From Candidatus Nitronereus thalassa (GTDB taxonomy: Bacteria; Nitrospirota; Nitrospiria; Nitrospirales; UBA8639), in the NCBI RefSeq assembly GCF_032191465.1, contig NZ_JAQOUE010000001.1, positions 2,232,001-2,296,000 on the forward strand: a DNA stretch of 64,000 nt, given 5' to 3'. The position numbers were made by a program, and so were the translations under genes. Shown one piece after another: positions 33,558 through 64,000 of the stretch (its first letter is position 1; every line of letters begins with the position of its first letter). The notes beneath the pieces are model-generated. The model did no database searches. It had not been told where the DNA came from and worked only from the letters and a program-made list of their open reading frames with translations.

Positions 33558-34313
33558 TCACGTCTTGGGTTGCCAGCCCAAGCTGGCTAATACGCCTTCA
33601 GCAGTGTCACGAACCATTTCGTTTTCATCTTCAAGTAATGGGACGACCGACTCAATGGCACGAGTGTCTCCTAACCGGGCCAGGGATTCGACGGCATTTC
33701 GCCGAACCAGCCAGTCTTCGTCAGAAAGCGCTTCCACTAATGGTCCATAGCCCTTGGCATCTCCAATCTTTCCCAAGGCTTCTGCGGCATGCCGACGCAC
33801 AATCCAACTCGACCCTTGCAATCCTTCGATCAACGCATCCGTGGCGCGCTCATCGCCGATCTTTTTCAGAACACGAGCCACATCTTCGCGCAACATCGTA
33901 TCCACCAGACATTCCACCAAAGCAGGAACCGCACGCGAGTCCCCGATCCGTTCCAAGGCCCATACCGCAGCAGTCCGAACCCCACCATCTTTGTCCTTGA
34001 GGGCTTTGATGAGGGGATCTACCGCGCGCGGAGTTTTCAACTTTCCTAACGCCGAAGCCGCTTGTTCCCGTACCGCCCATTCATCCTCTTCGAGCGCCTC
34101 TATGAGTGGATCAATGGCCGGCTCTCCAATTTGAACCATGGCGCTGGTCGCGGCTTCCCGAATGACTAAATCGTCATCTTCAAACATTTCAATTAATTTT
34201 GGAATGGCGGAGGCGCCAATTTGCCCAAGGCCCGATGCCGCATGATTTCTCAAGCCCTCATTTTCATCCCGGAGCGATAATAGCAGTTGCTCTATCCGAT
34301 CACTGTCAGCCAT
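33558..34313 (-). CDS. HEAT-repeat protein (PBS lyase-type)
   Basis: This soluble protein of about 251 residues is built almost entirely of 31-residue HEAT-like repeats with the DxxVRxxAAxALGxIG pattern (for example WIVRRHAAEALGKIGDAKG). About eight repeats form a curved scaffold for protein binding. ATG 34313 was chosen because AGGAG precedes it by seven bases. It overlaps the preceding gene by eight bases, implying coupling. No enzymatic residue is seen; phycobilin lyase activity is improbable in this organism. Confidence 0.85.
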   Translation of the reverse strand: MADSDRIEQLLLSLRDENEGLRNHAASGLGQIGASAIPKLIEMFEDDDLVIREAATSAMVQIGEPAIDPLIEALEEDEWAVREQAASALGKLKTPRAVDPLIKALKDKDGGVRTAAVWALERIGDSRAVPALVECLVDTMLREDVARVLKKIGDERATDALIEGLQGSSWIVRRHAAEALGKIGDAKGYGPLVEALSDEDWLVRRNAVESLARLGDTRAIESVVPLLEDENEMVRDTAEGVLASLGWQPKT

Positions 34314-35403
34314 TGACATTCTCCTTTGCTAACCAAAATTCTTCGTCCAATTGAGCAGCGGCCGCTTCGAGCTTATCGATAATCACTCCTGAATTATAAG
34401 ACACCAGGCCATCACGATCGTTTTTCAATCGTTTAAACACTTCGGCATGGGGCCGCAATGCTTCAATATCTTTTATTTTTTCCAAGGCTTCCACAGCAAG
34501 TACTCGCAGGGGTTTAATGGGAATCATATCAATGAGCAAGTCCACAGGCCGAGAATCACCGATCAATCCCAGACCCTTCGCCGCCAATTCCTTCACCCCC
34601 GTATCCGGGTCCTTACGCAACCGGGCAATGAGTGGCTCCACGGCACGAACATCCCCGATTTTCCCCAAGACATCCGCCGCGGCTTCCCGCACGACCCAGT
34701 CGTCGTCTTCAAGATATTCAATGAGAATTTCCACGGCAGGGCGGCCAATCGGATGCAGGCTGATTACCGCTTCTTGGCGGGCACCCTCACGGAGCTCAGA
34801 CTCCTCCACGCTACTTAATTGGTTCATCACCTGATCAATACGATCGCGAATAGCCCCAAGTTTTTTTAAGGTTTGAACCGCCATATCCCGAATAGACGGA
34901 TCACCCATGGCATCCACAAGCGCATCCGCAGATCGAGGATCCAATAAATGGTCGAGAATTTCCGAAGCCTTAATCCGAGCCTCTTCATCGGGATCTTTTA
35001 ACATTCTGGTTAAAGGCTCGATTGAGGTGGGAATGACTCCCAACAACGCTGTCACCTGAGGGCGAAGGGCTTCTTCTTTCAATAATTCAACCAGAGCCGC
35101 GGCCGTCGGTTCATCAAGAATACCAGCCATCTGTTCTAGGGAGGCAGCTACCGCTTCACGAACGCCTTCTTCTTCACCAGCCAATAATTTTACTAAGGGC
35201 ACCCCGGCACGTGGATCACGAATCCGAGCCAACATTCTGGCCGCTTCAATTTTATAGGAAGGAGAGCCCGTTTGAATTTCTTTAATGATGAGATCCACGA
35301 CTTTGGGACCACCTTTAAGACAGGTAGCGGTGGCACGCATTCGACGCCAATCCTCTTCGTGGCCCAATTCCGTAACGATGACTTCTACTGTTTCTCTAGG
35401 CAT
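34306..35403 (-). CDS. HEAT-repeat protein
   Basis: This 365-residue alpha-solenoid has about ten HEAT units, from RDPRAGVPLVKLLAG near residue 70 to DVRAVEPLIARLRKDPDTGV and beyond. The first and last 60 residues are less regular (N-terminal VEVIVTELGHEEDWRRM). It is the second gene of the HEAT operon, 32 bases after the upstream HEAT gene and overlapping the next. Its role is probably as a scaffold; partners are unknown. Confidence 0.85.
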   Translation of the reverse strand: MPRETVEVIVTELGHEEDWRRMRATATCLKGGPKVVDLIIKEIQTGSPSYKIEAARMLARIRDPRAGVPLVKLLAGEEEGVREAVAASLEQMAGILDEPTAAALVELLKEEALRPQVTALLGVIPTSIEPLTRMLKDPDEEARIKASEILDHLLDPRSADALVDAMGDPSIRDMAVQTLKKLGAIRDRIDQVMNQLSSVEESELREGARQEAVISLHPIGRPAVEILIEYLEDDDWVVREAAADVLGKIGDVRAVEPLIARLRKDPDTGVKELAAKGLGLIGDSRPVDLLIDMIPIKPLRVLAVEALEKIKDIEALRPHAEVFKRLKNDRDGLVSYNSGVIIDKLEAAAAQLDEEFWLAKENVNG

Positions 35404-35435
35404 AGAGTTTTTCTAACAATTTCTGCTGTTCTACG

Positions 35436-36530
35436 TCACGAGAGTCGAATCCGATTGGGATTCCACCCTAAACGAGTGAGGGTTTCCTTCAAATGATACT
35501 GAATGTTTTCGTCCGGTTCTTTTTTGAATTGCTCGACCAATGGTGGAATCGCCGCTTTACCAAAAACACTTAACGCCTCCGCGGCTTCTTTTCGGACGAG
35601 TGTACTCTGAAGAGCTAAAATTAGCACCGGAATGGCTTGGTCATCTTTTAATCGAGCCAAAGCGCGAACCGCTGCCTCCACCAGGGCTAAATCCCGCTCA
35701 TACTTTTCGTCATCACAGGTCGGCACCCGTCCTTCAAACTCACGAGGATCTAATCGTATCACCAACTTCAATAGGGTTGGCACGCTTCGTCGATCGCCAA
35801 TTTTCCCTAACGCCTCAATCGCTTGTATTTGAAGACGAGGGTCTTCTATAAGGCCTAATAAATATTCCGTAGCCGTCTGATCGCCAATCTTTCCCAGAGC
35901 ACGGATGGCATCCTGACGAACAGCCGTATCCGGATCATCTTTTACAATTCCCATCAGCGGCTGAACAGCGGTTTTTGACCCCAGAACACCCAAAGTTTCA
36001 GTGGTCTTGAGACGAACCCGCCAATCCTTATCCTTTAACGTGTTCAGAAGGGGAGTCATCACATGTTCACCAATAGCTTTAAGTGCCAACATCGCTTCAT
36101 CCCGAACTGCAGGGACTTTGTCCTGTAAAAGAAGCACCAAAGTCTCGATCGCTTGTGGACAGGCCAGGCGAGCCATCGCCCGCGAAGCATGCATACGGAC
36201 CACCCAATCTTCGCTTAGGAGTGCCGACATGAGGGGTTCAACCACCCGTTCATCAGCAATCGAGGATAGAATCGAGGCTGCGGCTTCTTGAACCGATAAA
36301 TCTGGATCTCGTAAGCAACTTCCCAGATCCATGATAGCTGGTTCTCCAATGGCCATGAGAGCTGACGTGGCCGCGGTTTGCACTGCCCGGTCGGAATCTC
36401 GCAACGCGTCGATCAAGGGGCGAACTCCTCGAGGATCTCCAGATTGCCCCAAAGCGAGTGCCGCATCCTCCCGAACTCCCCAATCTTCATCCCGTAACGC
36501 GGCGATCTGTTCACCAACATAATCAGCCAT
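35436..36530 (-). CDS. HEAT-repeat protein, first gene of HEAT operon
   Basis: This alpha-solenoid of about 364 residues has roughly eleven repeats starting at residue 10 (IAALRDEDWGVREDAALALG) and continuing to the end (LKETLTRLGWNPNRI). The operon's 251-residue member ends similarly (ASLGWQPKT). ATG 36530 is used; a GTG at 36539 is also possible. It leads the four-gene set; the 260 bases upstream to the BCCT gene carry a direct repeat AGAGGACAAT twice (near 36754-36770) but no gene. Confidence 0.82.
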   Translation of the reverse strand: MADYVGEQIAALRDEDWGVREDAALALGQSGDPRGVRPLIDALRDSDRAVQTAATSALMAIGEPAIMDLGSCLRDPDLSVQEAAASILSSIADERVVEPLMSALLSEDWVVRMHASRAMARLACPQAIETLVLLLQDKVPAVRDEAMLALKAIGEHVMTPLLNTLKDKDWRVRLKTTETLGVLGSKTAVQPLMGIVKDDPDTAVRQDAIRALGKIGDQTATEYLLGLIEDPRLQIQAIEALGKIGDRRSVPTLLKLVIRLDPREFEGRVPTCDDEKYERDLALVEAAVRALARLKDDQAIPVLILALQSTLVRKEAAEALSVFGKAAIPPLVEQFKKEPDENIQYHLKETLTRLGWNPNRIRLS

Positions 36531-36798
36531 GCACGACACTCGTGAAAACGTTCCCTACCTAATTCAAAGCAAATATTCTGGCAATTCCGATGCAAAAATT
36601 GTTGATCGGCCCAGAATTCTGAAACCGTTCCAAATCACAGAAAATGTTGAAAAAATCCGATGCTGCCAACTTACCACAGGGTTTTTTTTGCGGTCAAAGC
36701 AACGCAGGAGGTGAGAAATCGATTCAAAAGACGCTTCTCCTGGGATTCACTAGAGGACAATAGAGGACAATGTTTCGGTGTTGAGGTATTCCAACCCC

Positions 36799-38286
36799 TT
36801 AACCATTAGTTTTGGATTCGATTTTGAAAGCCTTAAGAAGTGACCCCAACAGAAGAAGCATGATAAAGGCAAAGGGAAATGCCGCAAGAATGGACCCCGT
36901 TTGAAGACCTTTGAGGCCTCCGGACCACAACAACACAGCCGCGACCACGGATTGCACCACCCCCCATGTCAGTTTCACAGAATTTGGCGGGTTTAAATTA
37001 CCTTTGGTGGTCAAGGTTCCCAACACAAATGTGGCGGAATCGGCGGAGGTAATAAAAAACGTGGAAATGAGAAAAATGGCGATCAATGACATGAGGCCAC
37101 CCAAGGGAAAATGCTCTAGCAATGTAAAAAGGACCACCTCTTTCCCTTGGGCCTCAATCACTTGGTTAAGCCCGGTTTGCTGAAACAATTCCAAAGAGAT
37201 GGCCGTTCCCCCAAAAATCGAAAACCAAAAGGCGCAAAAGAGTGACGGGACAAATAGCACACCGAGAATAAACTCTCGAACGGTCCGGCCTCGTGAAATC
37301 CTGGCAATGAAGGTACCAACAAACGGAGCCCAAGCAATCCACCAGGCCCAATAAAATAATGTCCAATTTTGCACCCACCCTGAGTTATCGAATGGAGCTA
37401 AATTTAAACTCATTTTTGGCAACTTATGGAGATATTCCCCTAAAGCCGAGGTAAAGATTTCCATGATGAATTTGGTTGGCCCTAAAAAAAGGAGGAATAC
37501 CATGAGGGACAGGGCCAAGATCATATTCAAATTACTTAAATACTTAATTCCCCGTTGCAGGCCCGTCTGTGCTGACAACATGTACAACACCGTCACCAAA
37601 CCAATGATGCCCAATTGTGTATTGATCGTATTGGGGACTCCGAACAGATAAGACAGTCCTCCGCTAATTTGGATAGCCCCAAACCCCAACGAAGTGGCTA
37701 CCCCAAAGACCGTGGCAAATACCGCAATAATATCAATGGCATAGCCAGCGGGCCCATCTGTACTCCCCCCTAATATTGGCTTGCAACTTGCGCTAATGAG
37801 GCCAGGCTCCTGTTTTCGAAATTGGAAATACGCAAGACACATACCCACGAGGGTATAGATCGCCCATGGGTGCAATCCCCAATGAAAAAAAGAATATTGC
37901 ATAGCAACCCGCGCAGATTCGGGGGTACCCGGCGACCCAAACGGTGGATCATAAAAATGAGAGATGGGCTCGGCGGCCCCCCAAAACACTAACCCGATCC
38001 CCATTCCGGCACAAAACAGCATGGCAAACCAGGTGAGCAGGGGGAATTCAGGTTTTTCCCCGTCACGTCCTAAGGGAATATCTCCATATTTGGAAAAAAT
38101 AAGTAGAATCACGGTAGTTAAAAAGCCTGCGGCACACAGAAGATAGAACCATCCAAACGCATCCAATAACCAGATTTGGATCGAGCCAGAAACCTTGGCT
38201 AATTGCTTGGGGGCGAAGGCCCCCCAAATGAGAAAAACCGAAGTTAGAGCAAGCGATACGAATAAAACGGGACGACTGTTCTTCAC
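36799..38286 (-). CDS. BCCT family betaine/choline/carnitine transporter
   Basis: This 495-residue inner-membrane protein has 12 predicted helices and the BCCT signature WAWWIAWAPFVGTFIARISR. The tryptophan box in transmembrane segment 8 (WAWWIAWAP) lines the substrate path, and FISTSADSATFVLG-like FFITSADSATFVLG lies near residue 415. It imports osmolytes with Na+ or H+. The start is GTG. It is divergent from the betaine-synthesis methyltransferase gene, so uptake and synthesis of glycine betaine are placed back to back. Confidence 0.92.
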   Translation of the reverse strand: MKNSRPVLFVSLALTSVFLIWGAFAPKQLAKVSGSIQIWLLDAFGWFYLLCAAGFLTTVILLIFSKYGDIPLGRDGEKPEFPLLTWFAMLFCAGMGIGLVFWGAAEPISHFYDPPFGSPGTPESARVAMQYSFFHWGLHPWAIYTLVGMCLAYFQFRKQEPGLISASCKPILGGSTDGPAGYAIDIIAVFATVFGVATSLGFGAIQISGGLSYLFGVPNTINTQLGIIGLVTVLYMLSAQTGLQRGIKYLSNLNMILALSLMVFLLFLGPTKFIMEIFTSALGEYLHKLPKMSLNLAPFDNSGWVQNWTLFYWAWWIAWAPFVGTFIARISRGRTVREFILGVLFVPSLFCAFWFSIFGGTAISLELFQQTGLNQVIEAQGKEVVLFTLLEHFPLGGLMSLIAIFLISTFFITSADSATFVLGTLTTKGNLNPPNSVKLTWGVVQSVVAAVLLWSGGLKGLQTGSILAAFPFAFIMLLLLGSLLKAFKIESKTNG

Positions 38287-38643
38287 CCTTTGGTTACACC
38301 TTTCTCATATGTTATCCATAAAACGACTTCCCACCTAAAAATCATGGTCACCATTGAAAAATATGCAATATTTTCAAATATTTCAATAAATTCATTGCTT
38401 GAATCCTGATCGGAGTAATGAATTTTTCCAGTGTGAAGGGAAGTACCTAAGAACACAAGACTTAATCCCGGTCCTGGAACCGGGGTTGCTCCTTGGCAAA
38501 GAATGACGGTACACTCAAACTCTTCATTGACATCCAGAAGGATCTCTTTCCCCCCACCGACTTGGGAAATGCTCGAAAGCTCCTGGAACCTTGGTTAAAG
38601 GGTCCAAGGTTATTGCAAATTGTTTGAAGGAGGAATTTGTACG
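38287..38643. promoter_or_regulatory. divergent control region between osmolyte genes
   Basis: These 357 gene-free bases have an AT-rich core near 38350-38400 with an imperfect 20-base palindrome GAAAAATATGCAATATTTTC (about 38355-38374). It likely contains promoters for both the BCCT gene (-) and the methyltransferase (+). Confidence 0.45.
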
Positions 38644-40296
38644 ATGGCAAAAGAACAGGCTTATGGAGCCAACCCTATCGCCCAGCGAAAAACCGACCTA
38701 TACAAAAAGGAATATGTCCATAGTTTTGTTCGCAAATGGGATGAACTTATCGATTGGGACGCCAGAGCCACCAGTGAGGGGGACTTTTTCATTAACCTGA
38801 TGAAGGAACGGGGAGTTAAAAGGGTCCTCGATGTCGCCACAGGGACAGGCTTCCATTCAATTCGGCTTCTGAAAGCCGGATTCGAAGTCACCTCAGCCGA
38901 CGGGAGCCCTGAGATGTTGGCCCAGGCATTTGAGAATGCTCGGCGAGCAGGGTTTATTTTGCAGACCATCCATGCAGATTGGAGATGGCTGAGCCGGGAC
39001 ATTCACAATAAATATGATGCCGTCATCTGCTTGGGGAATTCCCTGACACATTTGTTTTCCGAACAAGACCGACGAAAGGCCCTGGCAGAGTTCTATACCG
39101 CCTTAAAACACGATGGCGTACTTATTCTCGACCAACGGAACTACGATGGGATTTTAGACAACGGGTTCACCTCAAAACATGTGTACTATTATTGCGGTGA
39201 TAATGTTTCCGCAGAACCGGAATATGTGGATGAAGGGCTAGCCCGCTTTCGTTACCGCTTTCCAGATAACTCCGAATACCATCTGAACATGTTTCCGCTT
39301 CGGAAAGAATATGTTCGAAACCTTATGGGCCAAGTTGGCTTTCAGCAAATCAAAACGTATGGGGATTTTCAAGAAACCCACCGCATCGAAGATCCAGACT
39401 TTTTCATTCATGTCGCCGAAAAACTGTATAAAAACGAAGAGCGCTCCCAAAAAGTCGATATTGCTTCAACCTATTCTCAAACCGTGGAAACCGCGAGAAC
39501 CTATTACAATAGCACCGATGCCGACCGCTTCTATGCGACCATCTGGGGGGGAGAGGACATTCATATTGGTTTGTATGAACAGGAAAGCGATACCATTGCT
39601 GATGCGAGTCGCCGCACCGTAGAAACGATGGCTTCGATGCTTCAAGATCTTGGACCAAGAACCCGTGTGCTCGATATCGGATCAGGATATGGAGGTTCTG
39701 CCCGATATTTAGTGAAGGCATTTGGTTGTCATGTTGGTTGTTTGAATCTGAGCGAAATTCAAAACAAACGAAATCGAGAATTAAATATCCGCGACGGATT
39801 GTCGTTAGCCATTAATGTCGTCGATGGGAATTTTGAGGATATCCCCCTCCCAGATGATAGCGTGGATATTGTCTGGTCCCAGGATGCCATTCTACATAGC
39901 GGGAATAAGAAGAAAGTCTTCGAAGAAGTTCATCGGGTCCTAGCCCAAGGCGGACAGTTTATTTTTACGGACCCCATGCAAAGTGAAACTTGCCCCAAGG
40001 ACGCCTTAACACCGATTCTCGAACGGATTCATCTCGACTCTTTAGGGTCAGTTCAATACTACAAGGAGTTACTGCTTGGCTTGGGATTTAAGGAAGTTGC
40101 GATCAGTGACCATTCGAAGCAATTAGCAAATCACTATGGCCGAGTTCTTAAGGAAGTTGAGGCCAACACCTTTAACCTCAGCCGTGTCTGCAGTGACGAA
40201 TATGTTGAGCGCATGAAAATTGGCCTTCAACATTGGGTCGATGGCGGCAAGGCAGGAAATTTGAAGTGGGGAATCCTTCACTTTCAGAAAACGTGA
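38644..40296 (+). CDS. fused glycine/sarcosine and dimethylglycine methyltransferase
   Basis: This enzyme of about 550 residues makes glycine betaine by three SAM-dependent methylations of glycine. The N-terminal half is GSMT-like with motif I VLDVATGTG (residues 61-69). The C-terminal half is SDMT-like with VLDIGSGYGGSARYLVKAF from residue 342. The two domains together match the fused form known from some halophiles. Start 38644 has GGAGG ten bases ahead; the TTG at 38620 is less likely. It is divergent from the BCCT transporter, consistent with salt-stress regulation. Confidence 0.92.
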   Translation: MAKEQAYGANPIAQRKTDLYKKEYVHSFVRKWDELIDWDARATSEGDFFINLMKERGVKRVLDVATGTGFHSIRLLKAGFEVTSADGSPEMLAQAFENARRAGFILQTIHADWRWLSRDIHNKYDAVICLGNSLTHLFSEQDRRKALAEFYTALKHDGVLILDQRNYDGILDNGFTSKHVYYYCGDNVSAEPEYVDEGLARFRYRFPDNSEYHLNMFPLRKEYVRNLMGQVGFQQIKTYGDFQETHRIEDPDFFIHVAEKLYKNEERSQKVDIASTYSQTVETARTYYNSTDADRFYATIWGGEDIHIGLYEQESDTIADASRRTVETMASMLQDLGPRTRVLDIGSGYGGSARYLVKAFGCHVGCLNLSEIQNKRNRELNIRDGLSLAINVVDGNFEDIPLPDDSVDIVWSQDAILHSGNKKKVFEEVHRVLAQGGQFIFTDPMQSETCPKDALTPILERIHLDSLGSVQYYKELLLGLGFKEVAISDHSKQLANHYGRVLKEVEANTFNLSRVCSDEYVERMKIGLQHWVDGGKAGNLKWGILHFQKT

Positions 40297-40465
40297 TAAG
40301 ATCGTATCCCGACCTTCGTATTTCGAAAGGAAAACCCGGTTATTTTAAAATGACTTTTCTCCTGGGTTTGCCCCACAAGAGGAGCCACAACAAACTCGCC
40401 CAAAGCCTTCCAAGGCTAAAAAATTGTGACAAATTGATAGATTTTTTAACGAGATACGCCGAACC

Positions 40466-41851
40466 CTACCGTTCTATTTTCAAGGACTTGGCGGGCTTAG
40501 CAAAATCCCCTGAGGCGCCGAATCGACCTTCCGTCCCGAGCACTTTATCAGTATCGGTATACTGCAGATCTTGACGGGAATCCTGGCCTTCTTCTTTCAA
40601 TGGTTCCCATCCTAATTTTTCCAATGTCTCTAACACGGTCTTTTTTAACGCACTAGTCGCAGTCAACCGAGTCGAGGCAAAGGCCAATACCCGCTCGCTT
40701 TCTTTTTCGACCTTGGAGGCATCAGGGTCATGAAGAAAAGCCACTAATGGCTCAATGGCCACGTCTCCAATTAAAATGAGTGAATTCGCGGCGTACTCTC
40801 GTAACACAATGTCTTTTAACAGGAAAATAAGGTCCGGAATGACCTTGGGGTCACGGAAATGCCCTAAGGCCGTGGCTGCCGACTCCTTAATGAGCTGATC
40901 TTCACTAATAATGCACCCAGGCGTTGGAGTGCCATTTTGAGGAATCCCTTTCCCTTTCAGGGCATCTAACACTGGGTGCAAGGCTCGAGCATCTCCAATC
41001 ATTCCCAAGGAAGCAATGGCATGCCGTTTGACGGATCCATCTTTCATGGCCTCGATCAAACCAGGAACAGCCCGTGGATCTCCAATGATACCCAAGGCAA
41101 TGGTGGCATCTTCTCGGACGGCGCGGTCCTCGTCTTTGAGCATGCCGACTAAAGCATCCACGACTTCTGGATCTTTAGTCCAGGCCCGTCCCATTTGATA
41201 GTCCGTGGTCATTCCGCCTAACGCCCGAACACCGTGACAACGAACGACAAAATGCGGATCTTTCAAGGTTTCGATTAACGCGGGAATGGAGGCCTTTCCA
41301 ATATACACCAGAGCAGTGCCAGCAGTTTCTCGAACGATCTTTGAGGTATCTTTGAATAGTTTAATGAGGGCCGGAATGGCTTTGGGATCCCCAATTCGAC
41401 CTAAGGACTCCGCCGCAGCGCTTTTGACTGCGCCATCTCGATCTCGGCAAGTAATTGTCAGGCCCTGTACCGCCTGAGGATCTTTGAGCAAACCCAGTGC
41501 CTTGGCCGATTGCTCGCGCACCCGCCAGCGTTCGTCCTTTAAACAGGTGATCAATTTTGGAACCGTGCCCGTCCCCATGGAGGCCATGGCGGAAACCGCC
41601 TCGGCCTGAACTTCCATCATGCTATCATTAAACAAGGTAATGAGCCCATCGATGGCTTGTTCTCCACCAATTTTTGCCAAGGCCCATCCCACCTGAGCTC
41701 GGACGGCCCAGTAATCATCTTCTAAAGCGGTCAGGAGTGCTTCTAGCGTACTCGGGTCGCCCAATTCCGCCAGCGCCTTGGCGGCTTCTTCGCGTGTGGC
41801 GTCATCGACATCTTCTAAAGCTTCAAGCCAATCTTGTACACGTTGGGACAT
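40466..41851 (-). CDS. HEAT-repeat protein, second locus
   Basis: This 461-residue alpha-solenoid has about 12 repeats from residue 10 (ALEDVDDATREEAAKALAEL) to about residue 420, followed by a charged, non-repeat C-terminus (EGQDSRQDLQYTDTD). It has the same repeat consensus as the proteins at 32.8-36.5 kb and probably shares an ancestor. It is the last gene of a minus-strand group with an exported protein and a degenerate phosphatase. Confidence 0.85.
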   Translation of the reverse strand: MSQRVQDWLEALEDVDDATREEAAKALAELGDPSTLEALLTALEDDYWAVRAQVGWALAKIGGEQAIDGLITLFNDSMMEVQAEAVSAMASMGTGTVPKLITCLKDERWRVREQSAKALGLLKDPQAVQGLTITCRDRDGAVKSAAAESLGRIGDPKAIPALIKLFKDTSKIVRETAGTALVYIGKASIPALIETLKDPHFVVRCHGVRALGGMTTDYQMGRAWTKDPEVVDALVGMLKDEDRAVREDATIALGIIGDPRAVPGLIEAMKDGSVKRHAIASLGMIGDARALHPVLDALKGKGIPQNGTPTPGCIISEDQLIKESAATALGHFRDPKVIPDLIFLLKDIVLREYAANSLILIGDVAIEPLVAFLHDPDASKVEKESERVLAFASTRLTATSALKKTVLETLEKLGWEPLKEEGQDSRQDLQYTDTDKVLGTEGRFGASGDFAKPAKSLKIER

Positions 41852-48447: not shown

Positions 48448-49104
48448 ATGCGTGACCGTCAGATTCACGCGGCTGTCAAAATCGTTAAGAACACTATTCG
48501 GCAATGGGAAGAGCCTATTGTCGGAGTCGTGGCCCGAGAATCCCGCGATCCTTTCCAGATCCTCATCGCCTGCCTTCTTAGCCTTCGCACCAAAGATCAC
48601 ACTACGGCTGAAGCGAGCCAACGATTATTCTCTCTAGCGGATAACCCAGCACGAATGCTCAAGCTACCACTCAAGCAAGTGGAACACGCTATCTTCCCTG
48701 TAGGATTTTACAAAACCAAGGCCAAACAAATTCATGCGATCTGTCAGAGTCTCTTAGAAAACTTTGAGGGCCGAGTTCCCCGCACAATTGATGAATTGCT
48801 CACACTCAAAGGAGTAGGGAGAAAAACGGCAAACTTAGTGGTCACTGTGGGATATAACAAACCGGGAATTTGCGTGGATATTCATGTCCACCGCATCAGC
48901 AATCGTTGGGGATACATTCAAACCAAAACCCCTGAGGAATCCGAGCAAGCGTTACGGAACAAACTCCCCAAAAAATATTGGATCCAATTTAACGATTGGC
49001 TCGTCCCCTACGGCCAAAACCTCTGCCGCCCAGTTTCACCCTTTTGTAGCCAATGTCCTGTGAGTGATTATTGTGATCGGGTGGGTGTGACTACCTCGCG
49101 GTAG
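48448..49104 (+). CDS. nth: endonuclease III
   Basis: This 218-residue DNA glycosylase/AP lyase repairs oxidised pyrimidines. The helix-hairpin-helix LKGVGRKTANLVV contains the catalytic Lys, and the Asp in CVDIHVHRISNRWG is the second active residue. A [4Fe-4S] cluster is supplied by CRPVSPFCSQCPVSDYC (Cys-x6-Cys-x2-Cys-x5-Cys). Length is normal. A repeat element begins about 55 bases after the stop. Confidence 0.95.
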   Translation: MRDRQIHAAVKIVKNTIRQWEEPIVGVVARESRDPFQILIACLLSLRTKDHTTAEASQRLFSLADNPARMLKLPLKQVEHAIFPVGFYKTKAKQIHAICQSLLENFEGRVPRTIDELLTLKGVGRKTANLVVTVGYNKPGICVDIHVHRISNRWGYIQTKTPEESEQALRNKLPKKYWIQFNDWLVPYGQNLCRPVSPFCSQCPVSDYCDRVGVTTSR

Positions 49105-49160
49105 ACTTCTCTTACCCGAGTTGTCATTCTGAGCGGAGTGAAGAATCTCTCTTTTTTATA

Positions 49161-49398
49161 TGCAGGGTTTCGCCCCTGCAGACGAGGTCCTTTTGTTTCG
49201 GCAAAAGGACCCAAAACCATTCTCGCCCGTGCGCGGCCCCTCCAACCTTACTAAGAAGCAAGGTCCCGGGGTCCCCTCCGCTTCCGTACCGAATAAGATG
49301 GCTCAGAAACTCGCTCCGAGGTGAAAAACCACCTCTCCACTCAAACAGCCTTCGCCGAGAGGTTGGATTCGGCACTCCACCTCCGCCGCGCCCAAGGC
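49161..49398. repeat. structured repeat, copy 1 (inverted)
   Basis: This 238-base element matches 50554-50745 in inverted orientation. It holds two hairpins: TGCAGGG/CCCTGCA (49161-49180) and GTCCTTTTG/CAAAAGGAC (49187-49210). GC-rich blocks with the same order as copy 2 follow (GCGGCGGAG, TCGGCGA, GGCTGTTTGAGTGGAG on the - strand). Compared with copy 2 it has an extra 40-50 bases in the centre. It occupies most of the 363-base gap after nth. Confidence 0.8.
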
Positions 49399-49467
49399 GT
49401 GGGGAAATGACCATTTGATGTTTTCAACCGGACAATACTATCAACAATATATTTGGCTCCATTAACC

Positions 49468-50259
49468 TTACGACGCAGCACCCACTTTCCATTTCACAAG
49501 TTTTTGATATGAAATTGAAAGAATGGCTACTTCAATGAGGATTAAAAAACAGTGTGCGATTTCGTAGATTATCGTTGCGCCAAAGCCAAATTTCTCCATA
49601 GAAAGATCACCAATAATCGTCGGCAAAAACAAAAATGCTACCGGAATCCCTGCTACAAGAATTCCCAACCTCCACCCATTTCCAATGGAAAGAGCCCATA
49701 CAGATGAGAAGTCCTGGTCAAGATTTAAAGCGATTGACGGGAGGATTAGACTTAGCCTCCCCACAATGGGAAAGAAAGCTATCACCATTAGGAGCAGCCA
49801 ACTTCCAAAAAACGGTCCAGAGATTTGTGGCGGGACAAAAGCAGATCCACCCATTGCTAAAACTAGTATTGGACTAAACATCATTAATAGACCAATGATA
49901 TAAATTCCGGTGAATCTCAGTAAAAACTGAGTCTCCCGCATGGCCCAACCACCAAAACCGAACTGCGGAACAACATGTTTTCCAATGAGAATGGAACGAT
50001 GGCAAGGAATCGCAAATATCGTAAATATTATTGAGGCTGGGATAATTGCTATAAAACTTAGTCCAATCTGGACCCAAGTGTCTTCCACAACTCCAATCAA
50101 ATACGTTTCTAGGAGATGGATCAATACCCACAGGCCAACCGGGACAATAAGCAGTCGTCCAAAATGAAACCGATCACCCCATACCACCATGATAGCTTCC
50201 TGAATGGTGGGCCATAGGGGTAAACGTGCTAGTTTTACATCTTCGTGTATCTCAGACAT
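49468..50259 (-). CDS. six-helix membrane protein between repeat copies
   Basis: This 263-residue inner-membrane protein has about six hydrophobic segments (LIVPVGLWVLIHLL, FIAIIPASIIFTIFAIP, FTGIYIIGLLMMFSPILVL, GSWLLLMVIAFFPIVG, VAGIPVAFLFLP and CFLILIEVAILSISY). I do not recognise a family. The N-terminal cytoplasmic stretch is short. It is the only gene between the two inverted repeat copies, which makes a passenger role conceivable. There is no adjacent partner on either side. Confidence 0.7.
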   Translation of the reverse strand: MSEIHEDVKLARLPLWPTIQEAIMVVWGDRFHFGRLLIVPVGLWVLIHLLETYLIGVVEDTWVQIGLSFIAIIPASIIFTIFAIPCHRSILIGKHVVPQFGFGGWAMRETQFLLRFTGIYIIGLLMMFSPILVLAMGGSAFVPPQISGPFFGSWLLLMVIAFFPIVGRLSLILPSIALNLDQDFSSVWALSIGNGWRLGILVAGIPVAFLFLPTIIGDLSMEKFGFGATIIYEIAHCFLILIEVAILSISYQKLVKWKVGAAS

Positions 50260-50553
50260 TATTGTTGGTTATTAAATTTCATAAAACTTCAGCCATAGAT
50301 TTCTCGTAAAGTAAAGAAGTGCACGATTTGTGCCTTATTGCCTTTCCCGAATATAAAGAATAAAAAATCACACTAACTTGTTGTTATCAAAGGCCAAGGG
50401 AAATGTAAGATCTTTTTAATCACTTTCCAACAAATAGAAATTGTATCTGAAAAGATACACTCAAGTACCCTTTGGTGCTTTCAAAAAGCTGACACTATTC
50501 CTTAAAGAACAAACTGTGGGAATAATTTTTAGTTAACTTATGGATGCACCTTG
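50260..50553. other. AT-rich gene-free flank
   Basis: These 294 bases lie between the membrane protein start and repeat copy 2. I see no gene; the base composition is clearly more AT-rich than the neighbours. Confidence 0.5.
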
Positions 50554-50745
50554 CCTTCGGGCGCGGCGGAGCCGAGGTGCTGAATTCGACTCTTCGGCGA
50601 GGGTTGTTTGAGCGGAGCGAGTTCCCGAGCCATGTAATTCGGGACCGTGGCGGAGTTTACCCACAGGGACGCGCACGGGCGGATATGGTTTTGGGCACTT
50701 TTGCCGAAACAAAAGTGCCTCGTCTGCAGGGGCGAAACCCTGCAT
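50554..50745. repeat. structured repeat, copy 2 (direct)
   Basis: This 192-base element matches copy 1 in reverse orientation. It has the hairpins GCACTTTTG/CAAAAGTGC (50695-50718) and TGCAGGG/CCCTGCA (50725-50744). The first stem differs from copy 1 at two pairs, both with compensating changes, while the loop CCGAAA and all flanking bases around the stems are identical. Confidence 0.8.
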
Positions 50746-50789
50746 GAAAATAATTTCTCAATAAGTGAAAAGTTTTGTGAAAGGGAAGT

Positions 50790-51209
50790 CTAGATAAACA
50801 AGGTCGTCTCGGCCCCTGCCGCCATCGCCAAAATAGCCGGCAGCCCCATCACTTCGTCTACGCTTTTTGCCACCGCATCCGCATCCACACCCATATATTC
50901 TAATCCCGCACTACAGGCGATAAGTCGAAATTGGCCAACCTTCTTGGCGTCTTCAAACATCTCAGAAATTTGTGGAACTTTGCGCTCGGCCAGTAGTCGA
51001 GTAACTTCATCATGATACGCCTGATACTCCGGAGGGAAGTCCACCTTATTGATGTTCCCTTCAGCCAGTTTCTTAATGGTCCAAAAAAGCAGAACGACCG
51101 TTACCTCTTTTCCCATAGCCGACGCCGTCAGCCCTAAGGTTGCGACTTGATGCAATTTATCGTAAGTGGCGTTATGGGCATAAATGATAAAGCGTGGCAG
51201 AGAACTCAT
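50790..51209 (-). CDS. DsrE/DsrF-like protein
   Basis: This 139-residue soluble protein has the DsrE fold: FIIYAHNATYDKLHQVATLGLTAS at the start, then VTVVLLFWTIKKLAEG and the conserved LIACSAGLEYMGVDADAV near residue 105, with the Cys of LIACSAG as the candidate sulfur carrier. Related proteins handle persulfide sulfur, but this one lacks neighbours such as dsrA or tusA, so its donor is unknown. It stands alone. Confidence 0.85.
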   Translation of the reverse strand: MSSLPRFIIYAHNATYDKLHQVATLGLTASAMGKEVTVVLLFWTIKKLAEGNINKVDFPPEYQAYHDEVTRLLAERKVPQISEMFEDAKKVGQFRLIACSAGLEYMGVDADAVAKSVDEVMGLPAILAMAAGAETTLFI

Positions 51210-59252: not shown

Positions 59253-62200
59253 TTACTTAAAGGACGCCGGAGTGGCTTTGAAGTTTTCGGGTTGCTCGCC
59301 TTCAACGTGTCGTTGACTCATCGACGACCCACCCAACGGCAGGATTCGTTGATCATTAGCAGGCAACACCCGGAGGTATCCCCATTGCCCGGATTGCGAA
59401 TAGGGAAGTCGTCCATTACTCCAGACATAATCCCCTGGCAGGGAATACTTTCCACCTGCTCCAGGCACAAACACATCCAACCCTTCTGATCCTGCAAACT
59501 CCACAGTGCTGATCATATCCGCGCCTGGCAGGAACGGCTCAATGGGCCATTCATGTTTTTCAATGGTAAACATCCCATTTTGCTCACTGCTCGCACCGAA
59601 CACATGCACCCGTACCGGGTCGCCAGCATGGGCTTGGATGAGTGGCGTGACCGGATCTTGTGGATTATCCACTTCACATGGCTGGAACATTCGACCAAGT
59701 GAACACCCAGCTTCTTCGCGATGGAGATACGGTTCCGCTCGGTAGTTCACCCCGGTCAGCCCCGCCACGTTTTGGACATAAGGCATGAAGCTCGTTCCAA
59801 TGATGTTATCTTCATCTTGGAAGTACAAAGCGACATCACGATAATTCGCGCGATTTTCATTGCCTTGAATGGTCTGATCTACAATCACGTCGGCGGTCCA
59901 ACTATTTTTCAGAGAAATATCTTCACCGGTTTTTGGATCACGATAAGTGGATCCTTTCGGACCAATGATGATTCCTCCGAACAAACCATTCCGAGGATTC
60001 ATGGCAACATTTCCCCAATCCCACACCAACGTTTGTCCTTCGCCATTAAACGGATCGGCATAGTAGGTGTATGTGCGGGATTGCCCGGACGCGACTGTTT
60101 GGTCACCTGAATTGTTACCAAGGTTGACTCCTTGAGAATCTTTGGGATCAAACGCCAGACCAAATGCTGAGAATGAGGCCCGACCTTCCTTGAGTTTATT
60201 GGTGAGCTTCACTTTGATGCAGTCACCCACATTCGCCCGAAGTGTTAAAGGCATGGGTTGCGCATCTCCCGAAACACGCTGTGCATCTTCCTCAAGCACA
60301 TAAATCTTCGCATCAGGATTACGAAGTTCAATTTTTCGTTCAAAGTCCACTTCAATGGCTTCCGGTGCATTAGGGTTGAAGCTCATGGACGGATGATCCA
60401 TGGCCACAACATTAAATTGCTTCACCGGGGCATCTGATGGACAGACCGGAAGCCGTTCGGGCATTCCTTCTTTGCCATAGGCCTTGTTTGGTAATGGCTG
60501 AAGATCCGAGACGGGTTTATCCAACACGCGGATAATTCCCCACGCCCCTTCTGAGAACTTGGAACTCCGACCATTGAAGAACAAATAATCGCCAGTCTGA
60601 TGGCGTGGGCCACCGGCTTCCGCCACCACTAAGTCATACCGTTCGGCAATTCCAATATGCAGAGAATTTTTCCGATTGGCTTCTTCCGCATATCGCTCAG
60701 ACCAGAAGGTATGCCCAGAAATGGTGAACACATTACTTTCGTTCATGGTCACATCTAATAAACGGAACACAATGGCATCACCAAGATATGCCCGCACCAT
60801 GGCTGTGCTTGGATCGCCATGCACGGCACTGCTGAAAATCTTCGACGTATCAGGATTATTCGACAACCGATGAGCAAATGGTTCCGCCCGGAAATTCAAG
60901 GCGCCACCGGTCGTATGCGTTCCACCATTCAAAAATGGCATCGGGGTCATTTTAATTTTATCGTTCGGCGGCATTTGGAAAGACACTGTACGTCCGGCTT
61001 CCAATGCCACTTCCACGGGTTGACCAGGAGGATTCCCGGCTGTCACCACGTTAACCGTATGCGGCACGGTATCCATGATATGTACCATCAATTCACGGAA
61101 ACTCCCGGCCACATCATGACCAACTCGCTCCACAGCATGAATATCCGCAACCGGCCCTGTTCGAATCCGCTTGCCGGTTTTGGGATCATGCCAGGTTGAA
61201 CCAAAGGGTTCCGCAATCATCGTTCCCACCGCACCATGTGGCCAGGTGGTACCACCGAAAGCATGGTCATGCCAGAACACACTCCCGACATCAGCATCCA
61301 CCCAGAACCGTTGGCGCACATATTCGACGGTGACAATGTCCCCGACGGGATGCGCATTCTTAAGTGGGGTAGTAAATGTCAACGTCCCATCATCAATTTT
61401 GGCAATGCGAAGTACTTCTTGGCCCTTCACATTATCCGCACCTACCAGGATCGGAATACCGACATGATATTGCTTGGCATTCGTCACGTGGATGGTCTTA
61501 TCTCCCATTTTGGCCATCTTAGTGATCTTGGCATTCATCGGTATGGGCAACCCTTTTTTCGTCGGCTTATCAAACTGCGTAAACGGACGCATCGATTGCT
61601 CGTAAGAAAATCCTGAGATCACACCATCTGAGGCCTGATTATCAAACTGAAAGAAATGGAAATGCGTGTTAATCTTGGATGATTGGAAATTGGTGATATC
61701 GTCATCGATCCACTCGCTGGTTAACATCCAATCAATACAATCATACACATTCGCCCGAACAACTAATGGAAACTTCTTGTCATTGTCTGCGCGAACTTCA
61801 GCTTCCTCTTCATGGACCACATACAGCAGTCCGTTTGGATCAACAATGGCTGGCTCACTTCCCTGCGCTGCGGAGAGTTCAATCGGCAACTGAATGAAGT
61901 GAACCTTATAATCTTGAGAACCAGCCCGATCCGGACACAAACTCCAGTTCCCATTTTCTCCAGGCTTCGCAGGTTCGACAGACCGTGTTCCATCCTTATT
62001 GAGCCGGATCATTTCTAACCAAGGAGCTGGGTTATGATCGTTGGAGAACGGAACGCGCTTGCCAAAATGCGGGGTCAACCATGGCCAAGCTACTTTTCCC
62101 GTTGAGGGTTCAAACCAGATAGCCCGGCGTTTTCCGGGTTCATATCCCTGCCACTCTGGACGATACTTGGGATTTTCCCCGAGGGTGGCTTCCTTCTCAC

Positions 62201-64000
62201 TCATTGCCCGATTACCTTCCCATACCCAATCGATGACGGTGGCATCATAGGCCTTCATCTGCCCAAGTTCGTCATCCTTATGACCTGGTTTACCTTGGTT
62301 GCTCAGCTGCATGGAAACCCAATCCTTCAGATTGACCACCGCAGGCTCAGATTTCCAATTGCTTTTTCCTGACCCTACAATTTTAAATTGCTTTCCAAAC
62401 CAGTTAACAGTGGTTCCCACTAATTTATCCGATGTCACTGGTTTATGAATTCGTCCAAGCCGATCGGGCAACTCCCGCAATGGAGTCATCACATCGTTTT
62501 GGATTCCTGGCGTCTGTAGGGTGTTGTACACTCTCCAATACCCCCACATCCCGGCGACATAATGATGCGCGACATGGCAATGGAACAGGAAATCCCCAGC
62601 CAACCATTGGCACAGACCAGAACCGCATTCCGTTTCCAGATCCAAGGCTTCTGAAGGCCCAATCACTTCGACATCGACCCGATCAGACTTTGTCCGTACC
62701 ACTGGATACTTTACCGGACCGGCTTGACCCGTACTCCAGACAGGCATTTGGGTGGCCCGAGGACTTCGTTGCCAACGAATGGATCCACCATGTGGATGAT
62801 GAGAATGGAAGACTTCCGAACCGCCGTGCACAATGCGGAATTTCGCCGGATCGCCTAAATAACTTCGCGGAATGGTCGGTGCCGCATCGCCAAACGTATA
62901 GGAACTATACGCCATGGATTCGTCTTCGAACCCAAAGTATTCATGCTGCACATGCATATTATTGATGCCGAAGGGTTCGCTACGATAATTCAACGCGCGT
63001 GCGCCAGGTCGGTAGGCATCAGTCAACGGATCGCGTTGCGGAAGGAAGTCGCCGTGCTTATTCACCGGGCGAAACGCTTCATCACCGACCTCATGATATA
63101 TCAACACAAATTCCCGAAAGTCCGGGCCCGTGCCATTCTTAATCATGGTTTGCCAGCCGCTTCGATCCTTCGTCGCTGGCCCCGTCCCTAGGGGATCGTA
63201 ATATTCCGAGCCACGGGGCTCGACAACAAAGACACCAAACAGCCCCATCACCGTCAACTCTCGGTCATTACTAAACGTGTGAAATTGGCGTCCACCTTCT
63301 TGCGTATCAGGATGGATGTACCATTCCATTTCCACGGTCTCGCCTTCACCAGCCACAGAATCAGGATTCGTTGTTGTCGCGGGTTGACCGGTCTTGCTCA
63401 TGACCATATCCGACCCATTGATATGAAGGCTGACCTCTTCACCGAATTCAAGTTGATTGCGAAGAGTCACTTTGACACAGTCACCTTGATTTCCCCGGAT
63501 TACTAAAGGCTGAATCCATTGATCTTGTATGCCATTTTTTACTCCGCCCGGATCATGATGACCTTCTGTTTCACGGGCTTCCGCATTCTTCGCTTCTTCT
63601 TCACGAATCTTGTCGATATCTTCGGTCAGGGCATACATATAACCCGGATAGAAATCCAACCATTGGTTCAACGTAATTTCTACGTCAATTGCGGAGATAT
63701 CATAATCCCGGACCGGGGCAGTTTTTGGACACATTCCCCCTTTCATAGAGACTGGCTCCACCCCGGAGGTGGAGGCCAATAGTCCATTGGCTGGACCGGC
63801 TCCATATTGATGCATCATGGACATGGTATTAAAGGCACCAGTGGTGTCACCACGGTGTTCCATTTCCTTTCCCATTTGCTGCATCAGACGTTGATGTTGA
63901 AGTTCAACCAAGGCCGAACGCTCCGCCCGCCCTTCTACTGAATTTTCAGTGATTGTTTGTCCTTTGAGCCGCTCGGCCCAACCTGGGGATTGAGAAGACA
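59253..64000 (-). CDS. giant multicopper oxidase, 5' end outside window
   Basis: The frame remains open through the right edge, giving at least 1582 residues; the TTG at 63911 is not the start. It has about six cupredoxin domains in three pairs, unlike the usual two to three. All four copper motifs are present once: HSH at about residue 368 (counting from 63911), HCHVAHHYVAGM at about 444, HFH at about 749 and HDH at about 876. HCHxxxHxxxxM is an intact type 1 copper site with Met. The best guess is a large metal oxidase like MofA/MnxG of Mn(II)-oxidising bacteria. Whether it is exported cannot be seen. Confidence 0.88.
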   Translation of the reverse strand, partial: SSQSPGWAERLKGQTITENSVEGRAERSALVELQHQRLMQQMGKEMEHRGDTTGAFNTMSMMHQYGAGPANGLLASTSGVEPVSMKGGMCPKTAPVRDYDISAIDVEITLNQWLDFYPGYMYALTEDIDKIREEEAKNAEARETEGHHDPGGVKNGIQDQWIQPLVIRGNQGDCVKVTLRNQLEFGEEVSLHINGSDMVMSKTGQPATTTNPDSVAGEGETVEMEWYIHPDTQEGGRQFHTFSNDRELTVMGLFGVFVVEPRGSEYYDPLGTGPATKDRSGWQTMIKNGTGPDFREFVLIYHEVGDEAFRPVNKHGDFLPQRDPLTDAYRPGARALNYRSEPFGINNMHVQHEYFGFEDESMAYSSYTFGDAAPTIPRSYLGDPAKFRIVHGGSEVFHSHHPHGGSIRWQRSPRATQMPVWSTGQAGPVKYPVVRTKSDRVDVEVIGPSEALDLETECGSGLCQWLAGDFLFHCHVAHHYVAGMWGYWRVYNTLQTPGIQNDVMTPLRELPDRLGRIHKPVTSDKLVGTTVNWFGKQFKIVGSGKSNWKSEPAVVNLKDWVSMQLSNQGKPGHKDDELGQMKAYDATVIDWVWEGNRAMSEKEATLGENPKYRPEWQGYEPGKRRAIWFEPSTGKVAWPWLTPHFGKRVPFSNDHNPAPWLEMIRLNKDGTRSVEPAKPGENGNWSLCPDRAGSQDYKVHFIQLPIELSAAQGSEPAIVDPNGLLYVVHEEEAEVRADNDKKFPLVVRANVYDCIDWMLTSEWIDDDITNFQSSKINTHFHFFQFDNQASDGVISGFSYEQSMRPFTQFDKPTKKGLPIPMNAKITKMAKMGDKTIHVTNAKQYHVGIPILVGADNVKGQEVLRIAKIDDGTLTFTTPLKNAHPVGDIVTVEYVRQRFWVDADVGSVFWHDHAFGGTTWPHGAVGTMIAEPFGSTWHDPKTGKRIRTGPVADIHAVERVGHDVAGSFRELMVHIMDTVPHTVNVVTAGNPPGQPVEVALEAGRTVSFQMPPNDKIKMTPMPFLNGGTHTTGGALNFRAEPFAHRLSNNPDTSKIFSSAVHGDPSTAMVRAYLGDAIVFRLLDVTMNESNVFTISGHTFWSERYAEEANRKNSLHIGIAERYDLVVAEAGGPRHQTGDYLFFNGRSSKFSEGAWGIIRVLDKPVSDLQPLPNKAYGKEGMPERLPVCPSDAPVKQFNVVAMDHPSMSFNPNAPEAIEVDFERKIELRNPDAKIYVLEEDAQRVSGDAQPMPLTLRANVGDCIKVKLTNKLKEGRASFSAFGLAFDPKDSQGVNLGNNSGDQTVASGQSRTYTYYADPFNGEGQTLVWDWGNVAMNPRNGLFGGIIIGPKGSTYRDPKTGEDISLKNSWTADVIVDQTIQGNENRANYRDVALYFQDEDNIIGTSFMPYVQNVAGLTGVNYRAEPYLHREEAGCSLGRMFQPCEVDNPQDPVTPLIQAHAGDPVRVHVFGASSEQNGMFTIEKHEWPIEPFLPGADMISTVEFAGSEGLDVFVPGAGGKYSLPGDYVWSNGRLPYSQSGQWGYLRVLPANDQRILPLGGSSMSQRHVEGEQPENFKATPASFK

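Follow-up and report, generated by a model that had tools for sequence, protein, structure and literature searches.

The window, a 64,000-nucleotide stretch of the Candidatus Nitronereus thalassa genome, carries two inverted copies of a structured repeat between two convergent conserved genes, with a single small gene enclosed by the repeats. The features of this locus, with the strand in brackets, are as follows:

48448..49104 (+): nth, conserved outer neighbour, coding for an endonuclease III-like protein
49152..49402 (-): left repeat copy, about 250 nt, located by profile match; long form with both hairpin-tip insertions present, 5' end toward the cargo gene and 3' terminal hairpin toward nth
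49161..49183 (-): terminal hairpin P6 of the left copy, stem TGCAGGG/CCCTGCA
49187..49210 (-): stem P5 of the left copy, GTCCTTTTG (49187-49195), loop, CAAAAGGAC (49202-49210)
49468..50259 (-): cargo gene, coding for a 263-aa predicted membrane protein
50552..50754 (+): right copy of the repeat, in its short form (about 203 nt)
50694..50719 (+): stem P5 of the right copy, GCACTTTTG (50695-50703), loop, CAAAAGTGC (50710-50718)
50722..50744 (+): terminal hairpin P6 of the right copy
50790..51209 (-): conserved outer neighbour, coding for a DsrE/F-like protein of 139 aa, convergent with nth

The inverted arrangement of the two copies, described in an earlier note on this DNA, was recovered as arms of 88 nt (49152-49239 and 50666-50753) that are 88% complementary, together with two more matching blocks. 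The stem sequences with their matched changes are present in both copies exactly as that note had written them, and the loop of P5, CCGAAA in element orientation, is indeed identical between the two. The window contains just two occurrences of the terminal hairpin GTCTGCAGGGGCGAAACCCTGCA, against zero expected from shuffling. Compared with shuffled sequences, single-sequence folding was strong for copy 1 (z = -3.66) and modest for copy 2 (z = -1.95). The main point, however, had been missed by the earlier note: the pair frames a cargo gene, and the cargo differs between relatives at the same locus. As for the 263-aa protein found here, no match was obtained in Pfam, PADLOC or NCBIfam, and distant homologues (28-35% identity) were present in only 6 of the 48 other genomes of the family.

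Other repeats were also observed in the window. Between nth and the left copy lies a different short repeat (49123-49150, CATTCTGAGCGGAGTGAAGAATCTC); similar sequences are found at the same place in the sister genome, hereafter G001, and also beside other repeat copies, which gives it the look of an independent intergenic repeat with a wide distribution. Eight copies of a degenerate 43-nt repeat extend over 33666-41120, probably within the coding sequence of repeat-domain proteins, and three copies of a 42-nt repeat, spaced by 1.5-1.7 kb, are located at 60200-63499.

The structured repeat itself extends well beyond the two copies first noticed, contrary to the lack of further copies that the earlier note had named as refuting its reading, since about 48 matches to copy 2 were found in the same genome (4.0 Mb in two contigs), with E-values of up to 4e-4 among the matches listed; these counts rest on searches and on fetched stretches. 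The repeat was present in 29 of the 60 relatives searched, all belonging to the same taxonomic family, and absent from all 23 other members of the order. A pattern scan of species genomes with the P5 region returned, among the matches listed, mainly Nitrospirales MAGs, as well as a few Gammaproteobacteria MAGs and one Nitrospinota MAG. In the gammaproteobacterial MAGs, the match is limited to the last 70 nt or so (P5-P6), i.e. the 3' part of the element, which suggests a wider superfamily with a swappable 5' domain. No occurrence was detected in the plasmid records, phage records and viral contigs searched, so that a plasmid or phage origin is without support. Against Rfam 15, only a tRNA was reported for the DNA at gathering thresholds, with no family for the repeat, and only a weak U7 match (E = 1.2) at relaxed thresholds. 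No description of the repeat was encountered in the literature searched, which left out most subscription journals. As a whole, the repeats make up an extensive family of folded DNA/RNA elements, not filed before, whose members lie as inverted pairs around small accessory genes. Concerning the upstream part of six gammaproteobacterial elements, it was seen by eye to be different and hairpin-rich.

The copies mostly form inverted, 5'-to-5' pairs, 0.6-2.5 kb apart, and in this genome the stretch between the facing 5' ends measures 0.6-2 kb and holds one or two small genes. For successive copies less than 3.5 kb apart, the orientations were -+ in 15 cases, ++ in four, -- in one and +- in none (binomial 4e-6). 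The genes on the two sides of the repeat also differ: 5'-side genes have a GC content of 0.432 and a homologue among the loci fetched from other genomes in 7 of 47 cases, vs. 0.497 and 28 of 48 for 3'-side genes (Wilcoxon 2e-7 for GC; Fisher 1.5e-5 for homologues). The homologue counts depend on the stretches fetched, the G+C contrast being independent of this. Most of the 3'-side genes (39 of 48) point toward the repeat, and the same 5'/3' polarity was found in the sister genome. Exceptions to inverted pairing are single copies, copies in direct orientation and arrays. At three loci in some relatives, direct-orientation arrays resembling integron arrays are interleaved with toxin-antitoxin-like genes, which by eye are DUF433/PIN-like, BrnT/BrnA-like and HicB-like.

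The cargo is distinctive in its content. Among the 51 ORFs located between facing repeats, matches were obtained to TIR, SEFIR, Cap12-TIR, SNase, DUF4238, HigA, RelE, YafQ and candidate defence families, and the variable-side genes beside single repeats include Schlafen AlbA_2 and FRG proteins. HNH is also among the cargo families. A control set of 51 flanking ORFs consisted mostly of housekeeping genes (ribosomal L20, PheRS, DapB, AccA and others); 41 PADLOC families were matched by the cargo vs. 12 by this control. Many cargo proteins, including the 263-aa protein of the window, are without a known family. A HigBA-type pair was found at different loci in two genera, ending about 55 nt before a repeat in two clear cases and, in a third, before a repeat fragment.

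At the window locus, three states were observed. In the relatives G003 and G004, nth and the DsrE/F-like gene are directly adjacent and no repeat is present; in the sister genome, only the orthologue of the right repeat occurs, beside an unrelated 125-aa gene, and the 263-aa gene is absent; in the present genome, both repeats and the 263-aa gene are found. Other orthologous loci likewise share a repeat and differ in their 5'-side genes. At the Der/M20-peptidase locus, G001 has two facing repeats separated by a spacer of about 71 bp with no gene, and these two repeats enclose a nuclease gene in the present genome. Homology on the left side of this locus stops at the 5' edge of the left repeat, and the right repeat is closer to the repeat of another locus than to its positional counterpart. 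Orthologous repeats are in fact often not mutual closest relatives, and a breakpoint search inside them gave mixed signals.

Eight empty facing pairs were recorded, with spacers of 61-115 bp, several of them sharing an asymmetric spacer. In addition, short palindromes that join two outer ends at P5 were detected three times in this genome and nine times in G001, and the controls (the reversed pattern, and four repeat-free relatives) gave none. Mismatches between their P5 arms are about as frequent as in random two-copy chimeras, whereas full pairing at the three variable P5 positions was seen in 123 of 143 intact copies. These fused palindromes look like deletion scars, and on the simplest reading the DNA between two facing copies would have been deleted from one P5 palindrome to the other, the two acting as short direct repeats. 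Such deletion is a known behaviour of DNA flanked by inverted repeats.

Copies range from 200 to 265 nt, the length differences being confined to two hairpin tips. RNAalifold, applied to 103 copies, gave a multi-branch consensus in which P1 is the closing stem and P2 a long one, the others being two variable-tip stems, P5 and the terminal hairpin P6. Covariation was assessed on 155 full copies against 100 alignments simulated from the consensus along the copies' own tree. Of the changed cells at paired columns, 59% still pair, vs. 25% in the simulations (maximum 30%), and 848 double-compensated cells were counted, vs. a simulated maximum of 385. By helix, pairing is kept in 52% (P1), 58% (P2), 79% (P5) and 75% (P6) of the changed cells, with simulated values of about 25% each (P1 25%, P2 23%, P5 25%). 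P5 is therefore among the strongest helices of the family, and its pairs are not broken as often as loop bases, the outcome that the earlier note had named as telling against its folded element. A stricter APC-corrected G-test of the R-scape type, with 60 tree simulations, left three significant pairs (E < 0.05), each of them located in P5 or P6. A direct comparison of the orthologous repeat at the Der/M20 locus also revealed a compensatory change, with AGAATGGTGG...CACCATTCT in G001 vs. AGAATGGAGG...CTCCATTCT here. That the element is folded and conserved, as first proposed, is thus borne out by compensatory change across many copies and genomes.

The outer boundary of the repeat is sharp, about 11 nt past P6. 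An intrinsic terminator was rejected by inspection, since the run that follows P6 on the element strand is A-rich and not T-rich. On the inner side, a promoter-like 5' motif, TTGAGAGTTTT, was found with up to two mismatches in 15 of 97 copies, vs. three in shuffled sequences. Several unrelated types of inner flank exist, and for this reason no single promoter or core site is claimed. One of the approximately five types is a GGGGACGTTACCC-type REP-like hairpin, seen just inside several copies (5' flanks of four loci), in a genome without a Y1 transposase.

Whether the paired changes reflect selection was considered from two sides. The earlier note had read them as selection for a folded RNA or DNA hairpin, which is too strong for the short P5, since a single template-switching event in DNA replication can make the two arms of a hairpin match again (PMC8794818). 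The two-pair P5 change from which that reading started, which alters two adjacent pairs at once, could be a single event of this kind, and some of the P5 covariation in general may have the same origin. Template switching can also homogenise the arms of inverted repeats (PMC8604942), and P5 and P6, as short perfect hairpins, are the best substrates. That mutation alone, through template switching and gene conversion, keeps the arms complementary is nevertheless unlikely in our judgement: loop inversion is an expected by-product, yet CCGAAA was found in 138 of 143 copies and its inverse in none, and the longer-range helices P1 and P2, less easily explained by template switching, covary too. The constant orientation of the P5 loop and the long-range covariation argue that the signal is not wholly due to template switching. 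A cellular role of the element, as a structured non-coding RNA or as part of 3' UTRs, with accessory genes that are incidental at intergenic spots tolerant of insertions, would agree with the tree-controlled covariation over all long helices, with length changes at hairpin tips only and with the strong folding of copy 1. G-U cells also outnumber A-C cells (186 vs. 100), although this ratio, a test of which strand folds, does not leave the range of the simulations, and the folded form may be RNA or single-stranded DNA. The modest folding of copy 2, the direction of the conserved 3'-side genes, which mostly read into the opposite strand of the element, and the numerous, dispersed, head-to-head paired copies, unlike a housekeeping RNA, make such a role improbable.

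The inverted pairs, with their sharp outer ends and a cargo gene inside, partly agree with the transposase-recognised element that the earlier note had envisaged, but no transposase was found with the repeats. The HUH transposase/RAYT family Y1_Tnp (PF01797) is absent from this genome, the control genomes being positive; no reverse transcriptase was found in it, and a TnpB-type gene (PF07282) is absent from it and from most repeat carriers. No recombinase or transposase recurs beside the repeats, and in 24 pairs examined for target-site duplications the flanks share no common words beyond those of shuffled pairings. A MITE-like or MIC-like transposon, in which the pair moves whole, as a unit that ends in long terminal inverted repeats and is served by a transposase in trans, would account for the single enclosed gene, the lack of a transposase inside and the many genomic loci. 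It is doubtful all the same, given the missing duplication and enzyme; moreover, similarity within a pair is no higher than between any two copies (0.744 vs. 0.753), and a single repeat is often shared with different cargo at orthologous loci, which insertion of a whole unit does not predict. Far less probable still is a derived integron, with the repeats as oversized attC-like sites served by an integron integrase. The cassette-like gene with a downstream repeat, the toxin-antitoxin-rich cargo, the direct-repeat arrays of some relatives and the three integron integrases above cut-off in G001, one of them beside an empty pair, are in its favour. Against it, no integron integrase (TIGR02249) scores above cut-off in the present genome despite its 48 copies, genome G007 has one above cut-off and no repeats, the copies are dispersed and mostly inverted, and in many copies the GTTRRRY-like GTTGGGC of the 5' end reads CTT. 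The G001 integrase gene mentioned above lies directly beside an empty facing pair on contig C99 (1197-2660).

With moderate confidence, the repeats are best regarded as the two ends of a non-autonomous gene-cassette frame whose cargo is exchanged through the repeats. The anatomy of the pairs, their polarity and the turnover of their cargo are read directly from the genomes. A structured repeat composed of P1, P2, the two variable-tip stems, P5 and P6 lies next to a core gene, at its 3' end, with P6 toward that gene, and two such repeats facing each other 5' to 5' delimit a space for a small, foreign-looking, replaceable gene. From this we infer that cargo would be exchanged by recombination between the repeats of incoming and resident DNA. 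This recombination may be homologous, which needs no dedicated enzyme and is our first choice, or it may depend on a recombinase that reads the hairpins. Cargo would be lost when slippage occurs between the P5 palindromes of a pair, each a short direct repeat of the other, and a scar of about 85 bp would remain. Toxin-antitoxin and defence functions would arrive with the framed genes, as they do with integron cassettes, although no integron is involved. A bolder version, a specialised system of gene capture and exchange unlike integrons and transposons, would use the folded repeats, about 200 nt long, as its recombination sites, and a putative host factor would exchange toxin-antitoxin and defence genes through them in relatives of nitrite oxidisers and beyond; this version is rather unlikely.

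The repeats mark, at the sequence level, the sites of replaceable accessory genes in a bacterial group that has been little studied, and new defence and toxin-antitoxin candidates could be found by reading between facing copies. They also provide a test case for the movement of defence genes in the absence of a visible mobile element. Because intact copies and fused scars share the same stem and have different histories, they provide another for how far DNA hairpin repair, and not selection, can mimic RNA covariation.

Several known systems resemble the one described here. In mobile insertion cassettes (MIC231, mic-qnrD), two inverted repeats bracket a non-transposase gene with no transposase nearby; their repeats are short transposon ends (24 bp in mic-qnrD) with target-site duplication (PMC3913671), whereas those found here measure 200-265 nt, are folded and covarying, show no duplication, and one of them can stay while the cargo changes. 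Integron cassettes and their attC sites share with the repeats the small, toxin-antitoxin-rich cassettes, a folded site downstream of the gene and, in part, the arrays. The present copies differ as dispersed inverted pairs (15 of 20 neighbouring copies are 5'-to-5') with no single platform, as much longer, multi-branch sites, and in the lack of a resident integrase in this genome. REP/RAYT systems (REPtrons) and CGTC-tagged repeats, the latter likewise without a dedicated transposase (PMC3733652), are also high-copy intergenic palindromes near gene 3' ends, with head-to-head dimers and the logic of single-stranded DNA hairpins. REPs are, however, only 20-40 bp long, whereas the present repeats are multi-helix, measure at least 200 nt and frame cargo, in a genome with no Y1 transposase. 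As for the REP tag (GTAG or CGTC), CGTC follows P5, but inside a longer conserved stretch. The TnpB that goes with the RNAs of OMEGA and IS200-IS605 systems is lacking here. The pairs work like a gene cassette system but are filed under none of these, as they fail the defining tests of integrons, REP/RAYT and MIC. In the minimal mobile elements of Neisseria, different genes occupy the same site between conserved genes and are exchanged by homologous recombination, the homology being supplied by the conserved flanking genes. Here, by contrast, the variable part is bounded by a dispersed structured repeat, which makes exchange between different loci possible.
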